Source: an uncultured Opitutia bacterium
GTDB taxonomy: Bacteria; Verrucomicrobiota; Verrucomicrobiia; Opitutales; Opitutaceae
Direction of reading: 5' to 3'
Assembly: GCA_903839035.1 (NCBI GenBank)
Contig: CAIMAQ010000076.1
Span: 1-58,914 of the forward strand
Length of the DNA stretch: 58,914 bases
The translations under genes and the position numbers were made by a program. Below are positions 2,883-48,957 of the stretch, piece after piece. Every line of letters starts with the position of its first letter. Position 1 is the first letter of the stretch. The notes under the pieces are model-generated. The model was not told the DNA's origin, did not search any database, and was given only the letters and a program-made list of their open reading frames with translations.

Positions 2883-4220
2883 TTACTGCATCACACCCGA
2901 GCGGCGCACCGGCGCGACGGCGCCGTTTTGCGCGCGCACCAGTTCACGGCGGAGCCAGTCGAGCGCGGCGTTCACCGCGCGGCTCTTCACCGCGGGGCGC
3001 GGGCCGGGCCAGTTGAGTTTCTTCGACCACACACCGTGCGGCGCGTGGAGCGCGATGAAGATCGTGCCGACCGGGTTGCCGCCGGCGCCCTCCCCCTCGC
3101 TCGCTCCGGCAAAACCCGTCACCGCCAGCGCATAGTCGGCGCTGAGCGTCTCCGCCGCGCCGGTCGCCATCGCCACCGCGCCCTCGGCGCTCACGGCGCC
3201 GTGCTGCAGCAGCAGGCACTCCGGCACGTCGAGCAGCAGCATCTTGGCGTCGTTCGAGCAGCACACCACGCCGCCCGCAAAAAACTTGCACGCCCCGCAG
3301 ACCGCCGTGAAGGCCTGGGCGAGCAACCCGCCCGTGGCCGTCTCGGCCACCGCGAGCTTTTTCTCCTGCGCGCGGAGCAGGTCGGCGCAGACCTTCGCCA
3401 GCGAATCGTGGCCGTAGCAGACAAAATCCTCGCCGAGCAGCGCCGCACATTCAGCAGCCACGGTTTCGAGCTGGGCCTGGGAAAGCTTCTCGCTGGGCGA
3501 GCTCACCCGGCAGTCCACCTGGCCCTGGTGCGCGCAAAACGCCACGCTCAGCGCCTCGCCGTGGCGGTCGAAAACGGGCTGGAGGCGCGTCTCGAGCGCC
3601 GACTCGCCGATCCCCGCCGTGCGCAGCTGCACATAGGCCTCGCGGTCGAGCAGCAGCCCGAGCTTCGCGAGCCGCGGCAGCACCTGCTCGATGAACATCG
3701 GCTGCAATTCGTTCGGCGGGCCCGGCAGCATGCAGAGCACCTTGCCGGCCTGCTCCACCCAGAGCCCGGGCGCCGTGCCATTGGCGTTCGGCAGCACCTC
3801 GCCGCGCTCGAACCGGTAGGCCTGCTTCAGGTTGTTCGGCGTCATCTTCCGGCCAAATGAAGCAAACCGCTCCACCATCGCCTGCTCGATCGCCGGATCG
3901 AACACCAGCTTCTGGCCCAGCACGCCGGCCAGCACCTCGCGGGTCCGGTCGTCACACGTCGGCCCGAGGCCGCCCGTCGTGATGACCACATCCGCGGCCG
4001 CCCAGCTTTCGCGAAACTGGCGCGCAATGGCGTCGGCCTCGTCGGTGATGGTCACATTGCGGTTCAGCAGCACCCCGCGCCGGCCCAACTGTGAGCCAAT
4101 AAACGTCAGGTGGCCGTTGGCCGTCAGGCCCAGCAGCAGCTCGTCCCCGAGCGTGATCAGCTCGTAGCGTTTCGCCGCAAAGGGCGCAGGGGCGGAGGAT
4201 TGGGTGCTGGATGAAACCAT
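2883..4220 (-). CDS. cinA: CinA family protein (MoaB-like domain plus NMN deamidase-like domain)
   Basis: This 445-residue protein has the two-domain CinA architecture. The N-terminal MoCF/MoaB-like domain runs from RYELITLGDELLLGL through VVITTGGLGPTCDDRTREVL and LPGPPNELQPMF. The C-terminal PncC-like domain contains ALAVTGFAGASEGEG and NPVGTIFIAL. In characterised members the C-terminal domain deamidates nicotinamide mononucleotide in pyridine-nucleotide recycling. The usual E-S-C-T-G-G motif of that domain here reads E293-T-A-T-G-G, so the conserved serine is a threonine; activity may be altered. The N-terminus is about 20 residues longer than usual and the true start may be internal. It lies alone, divergent from the kinase-like gene. 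Confidence 0.92.
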   Translation of the reverse strand: MVSSSTQSSAPAPFAAKRYELITLGDELLLGLTANGHLTFIGSQLGRRGVLLNRNVTITDEADAIARQFRESWAAADVVITTGGLGPTCDDRTREVLAGVLGQKLVFDPAIEQAMVERFASFGRKMTPNNLKQAYRFERGEVLPNANGTAPGLWVEQAGKVLCMLPGPPNELQPMFIEQVLPRLAKLGLLLDREAYVQLRTAGIGESALETRLQPVFDRHGEALSVAFCAHQGQVDCRVSSPSEKLSQAQLETVAAECAALLGEDFVCYGHDSLAKVCADLLRAQEKKLAVAETATGGLLAQAFTAVCGACKFFAGGVVCCSNDAKMLLLDVPECLLLQHGAVSAEGAVAMATGAAETLSADYALAVTGFAGASEGEGAGGNPVGTIFIALHAPHGVWSKKLNWPGPRPAVKSRAVNAALDWLRRELVRAQNGAVAPVRRSGVMQ

Positions 4221-11197: not shown

Positions 11198-11527
11198 ATG
11201 CCCTCAACCGCCAGAGGGCTCTTTCCGCGCGCCCGAAATCCGGTGACTCCTGACCGAGCCCCCCTCCTCCCAGAGTTCCCTCCTCCCACAAAATTTTCCC
11301 TGATCAAGTGAAGCCCGCTCCTCTTTTTCCCCATTTCTCCGTTTCCCCATTTCCCCCGTCGGTCCGGCCTCCTGTCGTTTTCACTTAATAAGTGAAAACG
11401 ACTTTTGCCCGGGCAATTACTCCGGCGAACGCGGCTTCCATCCGCGCGAAAACCACGGCGCCCCTCCCGAACGCCGTGGTTCCAGCTACCACTCCGCCAT
11501 CTCCAACGATGGCTCGTATTGGAATTC
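11198..11527. other. Convergent spacer with pyrimidine-rich tract and palindrome
   Basis: This 330-base spacer holds no recognisable gene. From about 11255 to 11365 it is strongly pyrimidine-rich (CTCCTCCC, CTTTTTCCCC, TTTCCCC units), resembling one unpaired arm of the purine/pyrimidine inverted repeats seen elsewhere in the window. The 29-bp palindrome at 11374 is its only clear structured element. Confidence 0.5.
11374..11402. repeat. 29-bp palindrome, copy 1
   Basis: Two 14-base arms, GTCGTTTTCACTTA and its exact complement, surround a single A. This copy is perfect. It lies between two convergent genes. Four other copies occur at 27741, 28182, 42141 and 48929. Confidence 0.9.
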
Positions 11528-12970: not shown

Positions 12971-12991
12971 GTGTAACCCATTGGGTTACAC
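12971..12991. repeat. 21-bp perfect palindrome
   Basis: GTGTAACCCA and TGGGTTACAC flank a central T. It sits in the convergent spacer between the peroxiredoxin gene and the kinase-fold gene, directly after the terminator. A related but imperfect arrangement of GTGTT/AACAC words occurs at about 17696-17720 in another convergent spacer. It may be a minus-strand terminator stem or a protein-binding site. Confidence 0.6.
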
Positions 12992-13980: not shown

Positions 13981-14077
13981 GAGTCCGCCATGGGCGAAAC
14001 GTCGGTGGCGGCGGACTCAAACGCAACGCCGGTTTGCCGACAAGTTATTCGCACACGAAACGCGGACCGTAATAAAC

Positions 14078-14165
14078 CTTAAGCGCGGAAGCGCGGAGGA
14101 GCGGAAATACCAGAAATCGATCCGGCTCCCTGAATTTTCCGCTCCTCCGCGTCTCCGCGATAAAG
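14078..14165. repeat. Imperfect inverted repeat of GCGGAGGAGCGGAAA type
   Basis: The left arm (about 14078-14109) has units AAGCGCGGAAGCGCGGAGGA. The right arm (about 14137-14165) is its near complement, TTTTCCGCTCCTCCGCG onward. A 27-base loop separates them. It ends directly at the stop of the CNNM-type gene, so on the minus strand it could act as a terminator stem. It belongs with the purine-rich inverted repeats at 18599, 32901 and 38616. Confidence 0.7.
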
Positions 14166-14167
14166 TC

Positions 14168-15505
14168 TTAGGCCGAGGCCTGCTCCGCGGTCGCGGCGGC
14201 CGGCGGCGCCTTCGCCACCAGCACCTTGTCCACCCGGCGGCGGTCCATGTCCACGACCTCAAAGCGCCAGCCCGACCAGTCAAAATGATCGCCCGCCGCC
14301 GGGATGCGGCCGAAATGCGTAACCACAAAACCGCCCAGCGTCTGGAACTCCGCTTCATCCTCGTGCGGCAGCTCGACCGTCAGGCCCAGCAGCGTCTTCA
14401 GCTCGCTCGTCGCGAGCGTGGCGTCGATCAGCCAAGAGCCGTCGTCCCGCTTCTTCGCCTCGGGCTGGTTGCGCTGGCCCGGGCTTGGCAGGTCGCCGAC
14501 GATCGCCTCGAGCACGTCAATCAGCGTCACCAGGCCCTGCACCGCGCCGAACTCATCCGTGATGATCGCGATGTGCTTGCCAGACTTCTTGAACGACTCG
14601 AGCAGCTGGATCGCCGTCAGCTTGTCCGACACGATCAGCGGCGGCAGCAGCAGGTTCTTGAGCGTCGTCGGCAGCCCGATCGCCGAGTGCGCCCAGAGCG
14701 CCTTCACCGGCACCATGCCGACGATCTGGTCGCGGTTGTTCTGGTAGACGGGAAAATACGAGTGGCCGCTGGTGACGATCTTGCGCCAGTTGGTCTCCTC
14801 GGGGTCGTCGAGATTCAGAAAAACGATTTTCGGCCGCGGCGTCATCAGCGCCGTTACCGGCAGCTGGTCCAGCGCGAGCACCCCCTCGACCATCTGCTGT
14901 TCCGCGCGTTGAAACACGCCGGCGTGCAGGCCCTGCTCGATCAGTGCCCGCACCTCGTCGTCCCCCACGGTTTCCGATGCCGGCCGCGCGCGCAGCCGGA
15001 TCAGCCGCGTCATGCCATCCGTCGCCAGCTCCAGCAGCCGCAGGAACGGCGCCGCCAGCCAGGCCAGCCCGCGCATCGAACCCGCGAGCAGCGCGGCGAC
15101 CTTTTCGGGATGTGCGCGGCCGATGCGCTTCGGCACGAGTTCGCCAAACAGCAGCATGAACGCCGACAGCCCCACCGTGATGATCATAAAGGACAGCGCC
15201 CCGGCATACGGCGCCAGCACTTCCACCCGCGCCAGCTGCGTCGTGAGCTGCCCGGCTAGCTTGGCCCCGCCCAGCACACCGGCGATCATGCCGGAAAGCG
15301 TCAGCCAGAACTGCACCAGCGCCAGAAAGCGCGTCGGATGCTCCGCGAGCTCCAGCGCCTTGGCCGCCCCGGTATCGTTTTTCGCCGCCAACTCCCGCAA
15401 CCGGGCTTTGCGCGCCGACACGACCGCCGTCTCCGCCATGGCGAGGAGGCCGTTGGCGAGCACAAGGAGACAGACGATCAAAATTTCAACCGGCAGACTG
15501 AGCAT
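14168..15505 (-). CDS. CNNM/CorC-HlyC family membrane protein (DUF21-CBS-CorC_HlyC)
   Basis: This 445-residue integral membrane protein has the full family layout. A DUF21 domain with four hydrophobic segments (ILIVCLLVLANGLLAMAETA, LALVQFWLTLSGMIAGVLGG, LSFMIITVGLSAFMLLFGEL, LAGSMRGLAWLAAPFLRLLE) comes first. A CBS pair follows (VTALMTPRPKIVFLNLDDPE; HIAIITDEFGAVQGLVTLID), then a C-terminal CorC_HlyC domain (ELPHEDEAEFQTLGGFVVTH). Characterised relatives export or sense Mg2+ or Co2+; the 'hemolysin' label is historical. It is monocistronic and divergent from the aldolase gene. Confidence 0.93.
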   Translation of the reverse strand: MLSLPVEILIVCLLVLANGLLAMAETAVVSARKARLRELAAKNDTGAAKALELAEHPTRFLALVQFWLTLSGMIAGVLGGAKLAGQLTTQLARVEVLAPYAGALSFMIITVGLSAFMLLFGELVPKRIGRAHPEKVAALLAGSMRGLAWLAAPFLRLLELATDGMTRLIRLRARPASETVGDDEVRALIEQGLHAGVFQRAEQQMVEGVLALDQLPVTALMTPRPKIVFLNLDDPEETNWRKIVTSGHSYFPVYQNNRDQIVGMVPVKALWAHSAIGLPTTLKNLLLPPLIVSDKLTAIQLLESFKKSGKHIAIITDEFGAVQGLVTLIDVLEAIVGDLPSPGQRNQPEAKKRDDGSWLIDATLATSELKTLLGLTVELPHEDEAEFQTLGGFVVTHFGRIPAAGDHFDWSGWRFEVVDMDRRRVDKVLVAKAPPAAATAEQASA

Positions 15506-23395: not shown

Positions 23396-23549
23396 GGGTT
23401 TAAGTCGGAAGCCAGGAACCGGAGGTGGTCGTCGGTTCCCACACCGACGACAAGCGCCTGTCCGCGTGCAGATCTATCGTCGGTATGGAAACCGACGACC
23501 ACCCCAGCCCCCGATCGTTCCCGGCTTCATGGCTTCCGGCTAAAAACCG
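23396..23549. repeat. Long imperfect inverted repeat in a divergent promoter region
   Basis: The left arm (23396-23451) reads through TCGGAAGCC, GGTGGTCGTCGGTT and CCGACGAC. The right arm (23478-23549) holds the matching GTCGGTATGG, AACCGACGACCACC and GGCTTCCGGC. The arms extend over about 50 bases with mismatches and bulges. It fills the spacer between the nucleotidyltransferase start and the GH38 gene. The GH38 reading frame stays open through it, but this part is not conserved protein. Confidence 0.75.
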
Positions 23550-23616: not shown

Positions 23617-26600
23617 ATGCTGCCCCTCAATCCCCTGCTCTCGATGACGCCCCTGCGCGCCCAGCGCGGTGTGCTGCGTCTGGCCGAAATGATCTGGTCG
23701 GACCCGCGCCCACTGGCCGTCGAGGCCACCGCCAGCCGCCCGGATCATATCCCGCTGGCTGTCGGCAAAAAAGCCCCGCGCCGCCCCGTGCGCGCCGGGG
23801 AGGCCTGGGGTCGGCTCTACGACCAGCGCTGGTGCAAGGTCACCTTCCCGTCCGGCGGTCCGCGCTGGATGCGCTGGGACGAACAGGGCGAGGCCACCCT
23901 CTTCATCAACGGCACGCCGTTCTACGGCTTCGACGTCGCCCACCGCACCGTTGAGCTCCCTGCCGGCGTGCGCGAGGTCTGGGTCGAGTCACTCTGCTGC
24001 CAGGCCGCCGTCTGGCACCCCGACGCGAAGGGTCTCGCCGAAAACGGCAACCTCTTCCGCGGCGCCTCACTCCTCCGCCGCGACGACTCCGCCTGGGCCG
24101 CGTACCACGACCTGAACTGCCTCTACGATTACCTGATCGAGCTCCGCGCCCGGGAACTCCCCGGCGTGCCGCGTGAACTCCAGGCCATGGCGCAACAGCC
24201 GCCGCTGATCGATGTCTCGGCGCAGTTCCGCCGCCTGCTACGCGGACTCGACCTCGCGCTCGATGCCTTCGACACGTCCGGCGTGGAGGCCCTGCGGCGG
24301 GCGCTGGCCGCGGTCTACCGCGAGATGAAGGACGCCGCGCCTTTCTCCCGCGCCGCGCTGACCGGCCACTCCCACCTTGACCTCGTCTGGCTCTGGACCG
24401 AGCAGGTCGGCGAGGGCAAGGCCGTGCACACGTTCTCCAACGTCAACCGGCTGATGGCGCTCTACCCCGAGTTCCGCTTCGCCTACTCACAGTCCGCGAG
24501 CTACGAAGCCGTCGCCCGCCGCTCGCCCGAGCTGCACCGCGCCGTGAAGGCCCGCCTGCGCTCCGGCCAGTGGGAAGCCACCGGCGGCATGTACGTCGAG
24601 GCCGATTCCCACGTCCCGTGCGGCGAGGGCCTCGCCCGCGCGTTCATCGTCGGCCAGGAATCGTTTCGCAAACTCACCGGCCGAAATTCCCGCGTGCTCT
24701 GGTTGCCCGACTTGTTCGGCTTCAGCGCGTGCCTGCCGCAGTTGATGAAGCTGAGCGGCGTGGATTATTTCTTCACGACCAAGACCACGTGGAACACCAC
24801 CAACCGCTTCCCGCACTCCAGCTTCGTCTGGCGCGGCGCTGGCGGCCACGCGGTGGTCAGCCACGTCACGCAGGGCGTGCAGTTCAACAACACCCTCGCC
24901 GTCGACCAGATCAACGCCTCCGCCCGGCAAAACCAACAGGGCGACATCCACAACGAGGTCCTCATGCCGAACGGCTACGGCGACGGCGGCGGCGGCCCAA
25001 GCGAGGAAATGTGCGAGCGCGCCCGCCGGCTCAACGCACTGCGCGGCCTCCCCGCCCTGAAATGGGACCAGCCCGAGGCCTTCTTCGACCGCCTCGCGAT
25101 GAAACGCGCCCAGCTCCCCGCCCTCGATGGCGAAATCTACCTGGAATATCACCGCGGCACGTTCACGACGCAGAGCCGCGTGAAGTCCCACTTCCGCGAC
25201 CTCGAGCGTGCCCTGCAGGCCCACGAGGCCGTCCTCGTCGCGACTCAGGGAACTCCTGGCTCCGATCTCGCCCACGCCTGGCGCCGCATGGTCTTCGCGC
25301 AGTTCCACGACTATATCCCCGGCAGTTCCATTCCCGAGGTCTACGTGAAGGGCCTCCCGGAACTCGCGCGACTCACCCGTGAGCAAACAGCCGCAGCACT
25401 CCGACAGGTGGAACGCATTGCCCCCAATGCGTTGAAACGTCGGTCCGCGAACCAGCGCGTTGAGGGCAACACGCTCCACCTCTTCAACCCCCTCCCTCTC
25501 GCCCGCCGCTGTGTCGTCGCCGGCAAGGTCGTCGACCTCCCGCCGCTCGCCGGCGTTCGCCTCTCCGACGCCATCGTCCGTGGCGTGCCGAAAGTCACCG
25601 TCCAGGCCCGCACCCTGTCCAACGGCCGCGTCACCGCGCGCCTCGATGCCCGCGGCGAACTCGCCGCGCTCAGCGTGGACGGCCGCGCCATCGAGCTCTC
25701 CGCCGGTGCCGGCCGGCTCGTCGCCTATCCCGACCACGCCGCCAATTTCGGCCCGTGGGACATTGACCGCTCCACGCTTTCGCTCGGACAACCCGCGCAC
25801 GGTCCGGCGAAAATCGTCACCGGCAAAGATTCCATTGCTGTCACCCGGAAACTCGGCGCCCAGAGTACCGCGACGGTGCGCTACTCACTCGAGCCCGGCG
25901 CGAGCGTGCTCCGCCTGACCGTCGAGCTCGACTACCACGAGGAGAACTCGCTCCTGAAACTGCATTTTCCGACCGCTTACCGCGGACGCGAGGTGCGCTG
26001 CGGCACGCCGTTTGGCAGCGTGCTGCGGCCGCAGCTCGCCACCACGCGCGAGGCCGAGGCGATGTTCGAATGGCCGATGAGCCGCTGGGCGACGGTGAGC
26101 TCCGAGGGCGAACGCTCCGGCCTGTTCGCGCTGACCGAAAATAAATACGGCGTCAGCGTCCGTGACGGCGACCTCGCCGTCACGCTCCTCCGCACCCCCC
26201 GCCACGTCGGCTACGAGGACCATGGCCGCGCCTATCCGCAGCAACTCAGCCGCCTGCCGAAACCCGCCACGATCTACACCGACCTCGGCCGCCACACGAT
26301 CGAGCTCGCGCTCGGCTTCTACGATCTCACCGCCCCCCGCGCCGAGCAACCTGCCACGCAGGCCGAGAATCTCTTCACCCCGCCCCTGGCCTACCGTGGC
26401 GTCCCCCAGACCTCCGCCTTCACCGGCCTCGAGGGCGGCGAAACCCTGATCCCCCACTGGGCCCAGCCCCAAGGCCGGGACCGCTGGGTCCTCCGCCTCC
26501 ACGAAGTTGCCGGCCAGCGCGGCACCGCCAAACTGAACTTCGCGCCCGGCTGGACCGCCCGCAAAGTGGACCTCCTCGGCAATACACTCAGCGCCCCGCT

Positions 26601-26667
26601 GCGCAACGGCCGCCTGACTTTCGCCCCGTACGAAATAGTGAGTCTGCAGCTGGCACGCCAAAAGTAA
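23617..26667 (+). CDS. GH38 alpha-mannosidase
   Basis: This enzyme of about 1016 residues releases alpha-linked mannose. The GH38 zinc site is visible in GHSHLDLVWLWTEQ (H253, D255), with the nucleophile predicted at D365 in LWLPDLFGFSACLPQLMKLS. GMYVEADSHVPCGEGLARAF and the middle-domain HDYIPGSSIPEVY are also typical. Glyco_hydro_38C-type beta domains fill the C-terminal half. No signal peptide is seen, so it is probably cytoplasmic. I set the start at 23617 because earlier codons lie in the inverted repeat; 23644 is possible. Confidence 0.92.
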   Translation: MLPLNPLLSMTPLRAQRGVLRLAEMIWSDPRPLAVEATASRPDHIPLAVGKKAPRRPVRAGEAWGRLYDQRWCKVTFPSGGPRWMRWDEQGEATLFINGTPFYGFDVAHRTVELPAGVREVWVESLCCQAAVWHPDAKGLAENGNLFRGASLLRRDDSAWAAYHDLNCLYDYLIELRARELPGVPRELQAMAQQPPLIDVSAQFRRLLRGLDLALDAFDTSGVEALRRALAAVYREMKDAAPFSRAALTGHSHLDLVWLWTEQVGEGKAVHTFSNVNRLMALYPEFRFAYSQSASYEAVARRSPELHRAVKARLRSGQWEATGGMYVEADSHVPCGEGLARAFIVGQESFRKLTGRNSRVLWLPDLFGFSACLPQLMKLSGVDYFFTTKTTWNTTNRFPHSSFVWRGAGGHAVVSHVTQGVQFNNTLAVDQINASARQNQQGDIHNEVLMPNGYGDGGGGPSEEMCERARRLNALRGLPALKWDQPEAFFDRLAMKRAQLPALDGEIYLEYHRGTFTTQSRVKSHFRDLERALQAHEAVLVATQGTPGSDLAHAWRRMVFAQFHDYIPGSSIPEVYVKGLPELARLTREQTAAALRQVERIAPNALKRRSANQRVEGNTLHLFNPLPLARRCVVAGKVVDLPPLAGVRLSDAIVRGVPKVTVQARTLSNGRVTARLDARGELAALSVDGRAIELSAGAGRLVAYPDHAANFGPWDIDRSTLSLGQPAHGPAKIVTGKDSIAVTRKLGAQSTATVRYSLEPGASVLRLTVELDYHEENSLLKLHFPTAYRGREVRCGTPFGSVLRPQLATTREAEAMFEWPMSRWATVSSEGERSGLFALTENKYGVSVRDGDLAVTLLRTPRHVGYEDHGRAYPQQLSRLPKPATIYTDLGRHTIELALGFYDLTAPRAEQPATQAENLFTPPLAYRGVPQTSAFTGLEGGETLIPHWAQPQGRDRWVLRLHEVAGQRGTAKLNFAPGWTARKVDLLGNTLSAPLRNGRLTFAPYEIVSLQLARQK

Positions 26668-27740: not shown

Positions 27741-27769
27741 GTCGTTTTCACTTAATAGGTGAAAACGAC
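27741..27769. repeat. 29-bp palindrome, copy 2
   Basis: This has the same left arm as copy 1 (GTCGTTTTCACTTA); the right arm has one change (AGGTG for AAGTG). It ends 12 bases before the start codon of the HTH-like gene, where an operator or a leader hairpin would act. Confidence 0.9.
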
Positions 27770-27781
27770 CAGGGTCACGTC

Positions 27782-28141
27782 ATGACCTCACCTGCCGCCG
27801 CTAGCGTGAATCGGGCGCTCGAACCGGTCGGCGCGCTGCTCGCCGTGGCCCAGGAACTCGCCCGCGCCGCCCGCCAAGGCAGCCGCGCCCGCCGCCGGGT
27901 GCGGTGCGGCTCCACGCTGCGGCCTGGTGCAGGGACTCCCTTGTGGAACGCGTTGGCTGTCTCCATCGCCTCCCTGCTCCGGCCTCACGGGGAAAAATCG
28001 CGCCTGGCCCGCCTGCTCGGGGTCCCCCCGCAACGCGTGCATGACTATTTCGTCCGCCGCCAGGCAGCCCCTGATGCGGAACGCACGCTCCGGCTCATGC
28101 TCTGGCTCTCCCTGCGGCGCGAGGGCATCAACCCCAGCTAG
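27782..28141 (+). CDS. Small HTH-like protein bracketed by two palindrome copies
   Basis: I do not recognise this 119-residue protein as a named family. The C-terminal half (about residues 58-112) looks like a lambda-repressor/XRE-type helical domain: VSIASLLRPHGEKSRLARLL, then GVPPQRVHDYFVRRQAAPDA, then ERTLRLMLWLSLRRE. The segment LARLLGVPPQRVHDYF is a plausible helix-turn-helix. The N-terminal half is Ala/Arg-rich and low in complexity. The gene lies between 29-bp palindromes at 27741 and 28182, with 12 and 40 bases of clearance. Autoregulation or recognition of the palindrome is a hypothesis. Confidence 0.6.
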   Translation: MTSPAAASVNRALEPVGALLAVAQELARAARQGSRARRRVRCGSTLRPGAGTPLWNALAVSIASLLRPHGEKSRLARLLGVPPQRVHDYFVRRQAAPDAERTLRLMLWLSLRREGINPS

Positions 28142-28181
28142 ATCCGCCCACCCCGCCCCAGCCTGCGCCACCGGACTCTCG

Positions 28182-28210
28182 GTCGTTTTCACTTATTAAG
28201 TGAAAACGAC
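28182..28210. repeat. 29-bp palindrome, copy 3
   Basis: Perfect arms with a central T, so it equals the reverse complement of copy 1. It lies 40 bases after the HTH-like gene's stop and in a convergent spacer with the heparinase-like gene. T and G runs (TTTTTTTGGGGGG) follow at 28228. Confidence 0.9.
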
Positions 28211-32900: not shown

Positions 32901-32981
32901 TTTTACAGGAGGGAACAGAGGAAACTGAGCAAAGATACTTCCTCCTTCACCTCACCGTTTCCTCCGTTCCCTCCTGTAAAT
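32901..32981. repeat. Inverted repeat of ACAGGAGGGAACAGAGGAAAC type
   Basis: The left arm (32901-32929) and right arm (about 32950-32981) pair through TTTACAGGAGGGAAC and GAGGAAAC words with few mismatches. It occupies nearly the whole spacer between the isomerase stop and the dehydratase ATG. It shares its terminal TTTACAGGAG word with the repeat at 38616, so it is a second dispersed family member. Confidence 0.8.
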
Positions 32982-38615: not shown

Positions 38616-38703
38616 CTCCTGTTTTTACAGGAGAAAACGGAGAGAACAGAGAACTTCATTCTCCGACTCGGTTTCCTCTGTTACCTCCTGTAAAAATCAG
38701 GAG
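38616..38703. repeat. Inverted repeat of TTTTTACAGGAG...GAGAACAGAG type
   Basis: The left arm (38616-38654) and right arm (38668-38703) pair through CTCCTG, TTTTTACAGGAG and AACAGAG words with a few mismatches. It lies exactly between the convergent stop codons of the DppC-like gene and the PhyH gene, where a two-way terminator would be useful. Its outer TTTACAGGAG word is shared with 32901. Confidence 0.8.
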
Positions 38704-42140: not shown

Positions 42141-42169
42141 GTCGTTTTCACTTAATAAGTGAAAACAAC
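42141..42169. repeat. 29-bp palindrome, copy 4
   Basis: The left arm is identical to copy 1 (GTCGTTTTCACTTA); the right arm ends ACAAC instead of ACGAC. It lies 28 bases upstream of the GH36 start, between two tandem minus-strand genes, so it is in promoter or leader position. Confidence 0.9.
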
Positions 42170-48928: not shown

Positions 48929-48957
48929 GTCGATTTCACTTAATAAGTGAAAACGAC
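48929..48957. repeat. 29-bp palindrome, copy 5
   Basis: The right arm is identical to copy 1; the left arm reads GTCGATTTCACTTA (one T to A change). It lies in the divergent spacer between the PhyH and SDR genes, 147 and 117 bases from the two start codons. The rest of this spacer shows GTCGGTGATGGTCAGTCACAGTCAG-like short direct repeats near 48880-48903 but no gene. Confidence 0.9.

Follow-up and report, generated by a model that had tools for sequence, protein, structure and literature searches.

The gene at positions 27782 to 28141 (forward strand) of the DNA analyzed here was identified from its open reading frame, its homologues, a predicted model, and a fold search as encoding a putative XRE/Cro-like DNA-binding protein of 119 residues (P0001), and its location between matched palindromes is a trait of the whole gene family. 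The data are probably best explained by a DNA-binding protein that is encoded between its own sites, probably controls its own expression, and co-evolves with a network of further, cooperative sites dispersed over the genome. The window, which is the whole stretch of DNA analyzed, is 58,914 nucleotides long and represents contig C76 of the genome of an uncultured Opitutia bacterium (G000, a 3.39-Mb draft of 126 contigs). The bracketing, the specificity code, the co-occurrence of gene and sites, the phasing of neighboring sites, the conserved positions, and the loss of sites in the related genome G002 were all established computationally.

An earlier note on this DNA had described the reading frame, with a plausible helix-turn-helix (HTH), as lying between two copies of a palindrome. 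The frame was confirmed at its place, with an ATG start, and was bracketed over 470 bp by copies at 27741 to 27769 and 28182 to 28210. The palindrome is 29 bp long and has the form GTCGTTTTCACTTA-W-TAAGTGAAAACGAC, here termed class 1 and given without strand. The downstream copy is perfect, while the upstream copy, one mismatch from perfect, ends 12 bases 5' of the ATG and is a probable autoregulatory site. A purpose-built codon model trained on the region scored the frame as weakly coding (18.2 against a cutoff of 12), and a homologue of the protein was found in 17 of the 57 genomes searched (G000 counted).

Three further class-1 palindromes were dispersed through the window. The copy at 11374 to 11402 lies between convergent genes and that at 48929 to 48957 between divergent genes; both are absent from G002. 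The copy at 42141 to 42169 is kept in G002 and absent from G005. The extrapolated place of the 11374 copy coincides with a site of another class in G004, and palindromes of other classes are found near the place of the 42141 copy in G004 and G008. In all, the 29-mer occurred at five places of the window (11374, 27741, 28182, 42141, and 48929) with 0 to 1 mismatch in the better orientation, compared with no occurrence in 100 shuffled windows. Across G000, allowing up to 3 mismatches, there were 28 forward and 24 reverse matches, most sites being counted on both strands, and none for a reversed control pattern; the shuffles and this control exclude a chance origin of the palindromes. A looser 19-base pattern detected 54 sites in G000, falling into two main classes. 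Class 2 (TGTAACC type) is represented in the window at 12972 to 12990 by a palindrome conserved in G002, and palindromes of this type bracket the second homologous gene of G000 (C123, 9256 to 9603). The window also contained other inverted repeats: a second repeated motif, TTTTACAGGAGG...AACAGAGGAAAC and its complement, at two places (32901 to 32980 and 38622 to 38696); a 27-nt inverted repeat, 93% complementary with arms 26 nt apart, at 23424 to 23503, upstream of a gene called at 23617 to 26667; and a 35-nt inverted repeat, 83% complementary with arms 28 nt apart, at 14073 to 14170.

The predicted structure of the window protein (mean pLDDT 77.8) contained helices at residues 53 to 66, 71 to 79 (helix 2), 83 to 90 (helix 3, the predicted recognition helix), and 99 to 113. 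The closest solved folds were of the Cro/C1 type (HipB, SinR, P22 c2, Cro, and controller proteins), all with weak E values of at least 0.3. The helical HTH fold and recognition helix 3 of the XRE/HTH_3 group were both found in the predicted model, and the HTH_3 profile matched 18 of 57 family members at E values up to 0.1, the window protein itself being unmatched. YdaS (Pfam PF15943, named "toxin") matched 48 of 57 members at E values up to 0.1; the window protein scored 19.3 bits, below the curated cutoff of 30. For the three members tested, NCBIfam gave no match and PHROG gave weak matches. With no NCBIfam match for these three and weak Pfam and PHROG matches, a known protein family was rejected as the identity of the protein.

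To define bracketing, a pair of 21-base palindromes was required, one on each side of the gene within 350 bp, with at least 16 of 21 bases alike. Such a pair flanked 73 of the 100 homologous genes tested and none of 1,144 pseudo-genes set elsewhere in the same loci as controls. The 100 genes included the best 80 of 105 loci from named genomes, two weak matches (L003 and L049) having been excluded beforehand; the records of these 80 were labeled Opitutaceae, Opitutia/Opitutae, Opitutus, other genera of the group, or Verrucomicrobia, and one Akkermansiaceae, and from these relatives G000 itself is probably a member of the Opitutaceae. Of the remaining 27 genes, three lay near contig ends, and the palindromes of several others were less perfect on at least one side. 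A complete lack of association between homologues and the repeat, set beforehand as the outcome that would tell against the proposal, was therefore ruled out. The expectation of the same repeat around homologues held for the bracketing and failed for the identity of the palindrome: most homologues were flanked by palindromes of another sequence, and the window's own palindrome was found in just 3 of 57 genomes (G000, G002, and G005). Direct and inverted orientations of the two bracketing copies were both common, and cognate palindromes were either single or paired on each side of the gene. Two members (G070:C1:2627603-2627929 and G143:C9:39616-39951) lay inside open frames of 854 and 843 codons, respectively, which may represent fusions or chance openness in G+C-rich DNA.

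The diversity of palindromes was found to follow the sequence of the predicted recognition helix, residues 82 to 88 (codons at 28025 to 28045 of the forward strand in the window gene, assigned by covariation and the model). Among the 73 bracketed genes, a helix 3 starting with PPQRVH accompanied the half-site TTTCAC in 4/4 cases and H-[RK]-[AG]-R accompanied GTTCG in 5/5; DRQ or SRQ was present in 8/8 TGTCAA rows, RQR-x-H-[LM]-L in 5/6 TGTCAT rows, and Asn at residue 87 in 11/14 TAAC rows. TGTCAC rows had PRQR, with mostly His or Asp at residue 87. Exceptions were L186, L189, L202, and L207, with Asn and TGTCAC, and L148, L161, and L210, with His, Tyr, and Gln, respectively, and TAAC. Mutual information with the palindrome class, calculated from 54 proteins of <75% identity, gave the top z-scores at columns 82, 87, 84, and 83. 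Column 49, outside the helix, came next and led for several single half-site bases; its signal was taken to reflect shared ancestry.

To control for ancestry, protein pairs (from 57 proteins) were sorted into four bins of identity outside helix 3. Across these bins, the identity at residues 82 to 88 was 0.74, 0.72, 0.75, and 0.81 for pairs of the same class, versus 0.44, 0.48, 0.52, and 0.61 for pairs of different classes, whereas for helices 2 and 4 the two kinds of pair differed by no more than 0.03; the P values of this comparison are nominal, since pairs are not independent. When the class was predicted from the nearest neighbor, helix 3 gave 44/57 correct and the rest of the protein was almost as good (40/57). 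The half-site class therefore tracks the recognition-helix residues 82 to 88 at each level of background identity, while helices 2 and 4 do not. This covariation indicates that the protein very probably recognizes its bracketing palindrome.

The number of sites per genome also went with the presence of the gene. Within 150 genomes of the family, the 73 with the gene had a median of 32 sites (quartiles 14 and 51), compared with a median of 1 in the 77 without it (Mann-Whitney P = 1.4e-18). At least 10 sites were present in 60/73 genomes with the gene versus 10/77 without a detected gene; the other 13/73 had fewer than 10 as counted with a pattern derived from bracketing palindromes, which misses some classes. 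Absence of the gene from a draft genome may reflect an assembly gap, and in G005, where contigs end beside the site of the gene and its palindromes, absence is not established. G008, 97% complete, contained 27 palindromes, in two subclasses, and no HTH gene was detected in it; the gene may have been lost recently or may fall in an assembly gap, or the sites may be bound by an unrelated protein.

A natural experiment was provided by G002, a relative roughly 93% identical to G000, with which it shares long blocks of 86 to 94% identity. Two such genes and two main site classes are present in G000, and G002 has only the second gene. A same-class site was found in G002 at 15 of 21 class-2 places of G000 (two of these places mapping to one G002 site) and at 4 of 31 class-1 places (Fisher P = 2.5e-5). 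The comparison covered 52 of the 54 G000 pattern sites, one at a contig end and one other being left out, and 24 of the 25 G002 sites, one at a contig end being dropped. Among nine sites whose stretches were chosen irrespective of what G002 has there (the five window sites, two on C62, and two on C97), one class-1 site was kept, one copy had decayed, and seven were missing, two of these losses going with the missing gene. From this one natural experiment and the family-wide counts, cognate sites are kept in the dispersed network only while the gene is present, with exceptions such as G008. Of the earlier proposal of a protein that controls itself by binding the palindrome, the putative binding is thus strongly supported by covariation, co-occurrence, and the G002 comparison, and autoregulation is plausible from the position of the upstream copy.

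Some genes had two palindromes per side, 47 to 55 bp apart and with little similarity within the pair; L136 and L175 had such a pair on each side. To examine the spacing, one locus was taken per 75%-identity gene cluster and dispersed pairs were added, some loci contributing two or three pairs. The 48 neighbor pairs up to 100 bp apart showed a best period of 11.0 bp (R = 0.55), reached by 0 of 5,000 jittered nulls. All 47 pairs up to 91 bp fell within 42 to 48, 52 to 59, 65 to 70, 77 to 81, or 88 to 91 bp, and none between, these five windows having been drawn post hoc, after inspection of the data. Gene-locus pairs alone (n = 38) gave 7/5,000 nulls, and dispersed pairs alone (n = 10) were not significant (423/5,000), and the two sets shared the same phase (V-test P = 6e-4). 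Before de-duplication at 75% identity, the set gave a similar period of 11.1. Clustering on 600-bp flanks was over-strict, merging nearly all gene loci because those flanks share the gene; it reduced 92 pairs to 19 clusters, 13 of them up to 100 bp, with 146/2,000 nulls. For the two complete genomes alone, a fixed-phase test gave P = 0.002 and a free-period test was not significant (489/3,000). For lac loops in vivo, fits have given helical repeats of 11.08 and 11.60 bp per turn (PMC1762422). The period of about 11 bp was taken to mean that proteins bound on the same side of the duplex cooperate.

Sites also appeared to keep their genomic positions while changing class. Seven of the 28 G004 sites mapped no more than 50 bp from the place orthologous to a G000 site, as extrapolated from the nearest aligned block, with differing classes; about 0.4 coincident sites were expected, assuming all sites to be confined to 0.35 Mb of intergenic DNA. 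Three of the places shared by G000 and G004 were in coding sequence, namely in an RlmN-like gene (L008/L257), a methyltransferase-like gene (L019/L252, with the same place also in G008 [L241]), and an epimerase-like gene (L094/L256). In the epimerase-like gene, G002 lacks 27 bases at the site, in frame. The RlmN site falls within a segment of 33 residues that separates two aligned parts; the corresponding segment of the best-matching solved RlmN has 5 residues. In both G004 and G008, a SpoU/TrmH gene carries a palindrome within its coding sequence at unchanged gene length. Class-1 palindromes of G000 and class-2 palindromes of G002 were found in the same intergenic regions at L022/L227 and L095/L234. 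The palindromes of L104 and L267 (G004) were accompanied by REP-like repeats of the GTAG type (such as GTAGCAGCCGACGTAAGGAGGCTG), which apparently belong to a different repeat family.

With regard to gene orientation, as classified from purpose-made gene calls, 54 intergenic sites were tandem, 25 divergent, and 22 convergent, compared with 52.3, 32.6, and 16.1 expected from intergenic length (P = 0.13). No preference for promoters or terminators was therefore seen among intergenic sites, and either role was rejected as a rule. A further 29 of the 131 sites lay inside called genes, some deep inside and others at the ends of genes or in questionable calls. The neighbors that were looked up at shared positions formed a mixed set (YbeY, RlmN, SpoU methylases, DEAD helicase, UvrD, EPSP synthase, and peptidases) and revealed no common pathway. 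The earlier suggestion that other palindrome-bearing promoters are under control of the protein is consequently not supported as a rule, the positions following intergenic length and some sites being intragenic.

The arms of the palindromes extend beyond the half-sites. In G000, class-1 copies were mostly alike over 29 bp, with complementarity stopping sharply after base 14 of each arm, and most palindromes stood without a gene between two copies. Likeness that extends to the outer bases looks like copying; these outer bases differ in relatives that share the same helix. Arm positions 10 to 14 were complementary in 55 to 100% of cases in G000 class 1, G004, and G008, 44 to 94% in G014, 21 to 64% in G030, and 24 to 62% in the class-2 sets of G000 and G002, against a background of about 27%. 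The outer arms used several base-pair types with self-complementarity kept in several genomes. Self-complementary outer arms would be needless for a dimer binding duplex DNA and would be explained by a hairpin.

In the mechanism proposed here, a small XRE/Cro-type dimer would read a symmetric site, each half-site of about 10 bases (e.g., TTTTCACTTA) being contacted by one recognition helix through residues 82 to 88; dimeric binding to duplex palindromes is suggested by the specificity code and the symmetry. Cognate palindromes would flank the protein's own gene, singly or in pairs on each side, and would recur at some tens of other chromosomal locations. Judging from its position, 12 bases ahead of the start codon, the upstream copy would most likely place the gene under autoregulation. 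Neighboring palindrome centers would be about 4, 5, 6, 7, or 8 turns of approximately 11 bp apart, and spacing in whole turns would place bound dimers on the same side of the duplex, able to touch or bridge; the phasing thus points to a cooperative complex of neighboring dimers. Protein and sites would evolve together, with sites mostly absent or decayed where the gene is missing. This core of palindrome binding, cooperation, and autoregulation by an XRE/Cro-type protein is considered reasonably likely. As to what the network is used for, an architectural role, through local DNA loops or roadblocks, is tentatively favored over a classical regulon because sites showed no promoter or terminator preference, with the regulon and a REP-like origin ranking close behind. 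The latter two concern network use and overlap with the core, and the probabilities given to the various readings are therefore not additive to one.

A classical transcription factor with a large regulon, with the palindromes as operators for the repression or activation of neighboring genes and with autoregulation of its own gene, has the binding step in common with the core. It would account for the predicted XRE-type fold, the site 12 bases before the protein's own start codon, the conservation of positions between species despite the change of class, and phased pairs like those of loop-forming repressors. It is nevertheless the less likely use of the network, as sites followed intergenic length with no upstream enrichment, 29/131 were intragenic, and the genes flanking shared positions had no common pathway. 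The palindromes could instead be REP-like selfish units of 29 bp, copied by host functions or by an unknown enzyme, with the HTH protein acting as a maintenance, regulation, or targeting factor. The likeness of most G000 class-1 units up to the sharp end at arm base 14, the compensatory outer arms, the presence/absence differences between G000 and G002, the doublets, and the presence of in-frame copies within RlmN and other genes, which is also a habit of REPs and RPEs, are all in keeping with such units, and different REPs have been described at about the same recB site of two Xanthomonas species (PMC3733652). This origin is nonetheless judged rather unlikely, given that no gene family adjoined the gene at more than 9 of the 80 loci, that duplex binding is suggested by both the specificity code and the 11-bp phasing, that positions were kept across species with a change of class, and that the SpoU/TrmH site involved no change in length.

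Two other explanations fared considerably worse. Transcribed hairpins, functioning as terminators or mRNA ends, would fit the strong hairpins predicted for the five window copies (−10.2 to −15.7 kcal/mol) and the compensatory arms. The 25 divergent sites against 32.6 expected are, however, about what intergenic length predicts, neighboring sites were helically phased, and Rfam contained no match within the window, by which a known RNA family was also rejected as the identity of the palindromes; an RNA element is accordingly very improbable. The earlier note had also raised the alternative that gene and repeats form a small transposable cassette, with the palindromes as its ends. In the comparison with relatives that it had called for, the cassette was absent from the same place in G002, G004, G001, G007, and G010, and one pair of HTH genes of 95% identity was found in different flanks within a shared block of about 900 bp (L168:3586-4482 and L169:218-1105). 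This block, however, continues beyond the outer palindromes, and its ends lie in other dispersed repeats, whereas a transposable cassette or MITE would have terminal inverted repeats at its edges, with target duplications. No direct repeats were seen by eye flanking the five window copies, and no gene family recurred within 4 kb of the gene at more than 9 of the 80 loci, so that no transposase or other gene is a fixed partner within that distance. Most G000 palindromes have no gene between two copies, and the paired palindromes of L136 and L175 are little alike. The cassette is thus highly unlikely. A virus or plasmid origin was rejected as well, no match being found in the viral contigs, phages, and plasmids searched. 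L168 also contained a second, similar palindrome pair at 3422/3469.

As a kind, DNA-binding proteins whose sites are dispersed are already known. MatP/matS, SlmA, and Noc employ tens of short symmetric sites across one chromosome that are not tied to promoters. The palindromes studied here are likewise dispersed, symmetric, and promoter independent, and differ in that the gene is bracketed by its own sites, the arms are long and self-complementary, and presence is patchy within one family (73/150 genomes). Nor was a symmetric ori/ter pattern of sites seen in G014, a single contig of 5,957,605 bp whose skew, from 20 samples of 8 kb, was noisy: GC skew changed sign at 0.9 to 1.2 Mb and 4.2 to 4.5 Mb and fluctuated noisily at 5.1 and 5.7 Mb, and the largest site-free stretch (2.54 to 4.66 Mb) was not symmetric. 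The skew of G030 was too noisy to read. The G014 palindromes were mostly paired, 66 to 183 bp apart, with unrelated DNA between them in the pairs read. XRE/Cro-C1 regulators (HipB, P22 c2, SinR, and controller proteins) resemble the present family in predicted fold and in symmetric sites near their own start codon, whereas here sites lie on both sides of the gene, many are dispersed regardless of promoters, and there is a family-wide specificity code with class change at fixed positions.

The REP/RAYT or TnpA-REP systems (REPtrons and REPINs) likewise consist of short multicopy palindromes, occurring as singlets, doublets, or clusters, mostly intergenic and also intragenic, in several classes per genome and with an associated gene flanked by the same palindromes. 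There, an IS200/IS605-type tyrosine transposase stands between the palindromes, whereas here it is the 119-residue predicted XRE-type protein. REPs also carry a GTAG (or CGTC) end tag, while the class-1 copies, inspected by eye, have GTCG...CGAC with varying neighbors, and the other classes inspected have no constant GTAG end; the palindromes here are symmetric with long stems and phased with the helix. GTAG repeats with a GTAG or GTGG end and mostly 6- to 9-bp stems have been reported for O. terrae, and REPs inside genes are on record (PMC3733652). According to the same paper, Rickettsia palindromic elements and CGTC-tagged REPs occur in frame inside genes with no dedicated transposase. In-frame intragenic palindromes were found here in the RlmN-like and epimerase-like genes, the SpoU/TrmH site involving no insertion. 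The passages of that paper on the Rickettsia elements mention no DNA-binding partner, whereas here a putative cognate binder co-varies with the palindromes. In the open-access literature searched, six core palindrome strings did not occur, the GTAG/CGTC REP paper was the only relevant one, judged by titles, on palindromes of Opitutaceae or Verrucomicrobia, and the network of sites with its binder was not found. What sets the system apart is that the gene is bracketed, that the code extends over the family while sites at fixed places change class, and that the self-complementary arms are long.

It is conceivable, though doubtful, that the protein, bound cooperatively to phased palindromes, causes existing palindromes to be replaced by those of its own class or selects for such replacement, giving a self-perpetuating network. 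If so, a change of the HTH gene would be followed by the rewriting of dozens of sites at fixed positions, some of them intragenic, in a conversion that resembles homing but has no dedicated nuclease. The findings link a family of repetitive palindromes to a putative DNA-binding partner that is not a transposase, and cooperative binding at sites phased by 11 bp is a prediction that follows from them. The 73 bracketed genes with their half-sites form a natural library from which a protein-DNA specificity code may be read, and the replacement of one DNA-binding protein by another can be followed at orthologous sites, some of them inside housekeeping genes.
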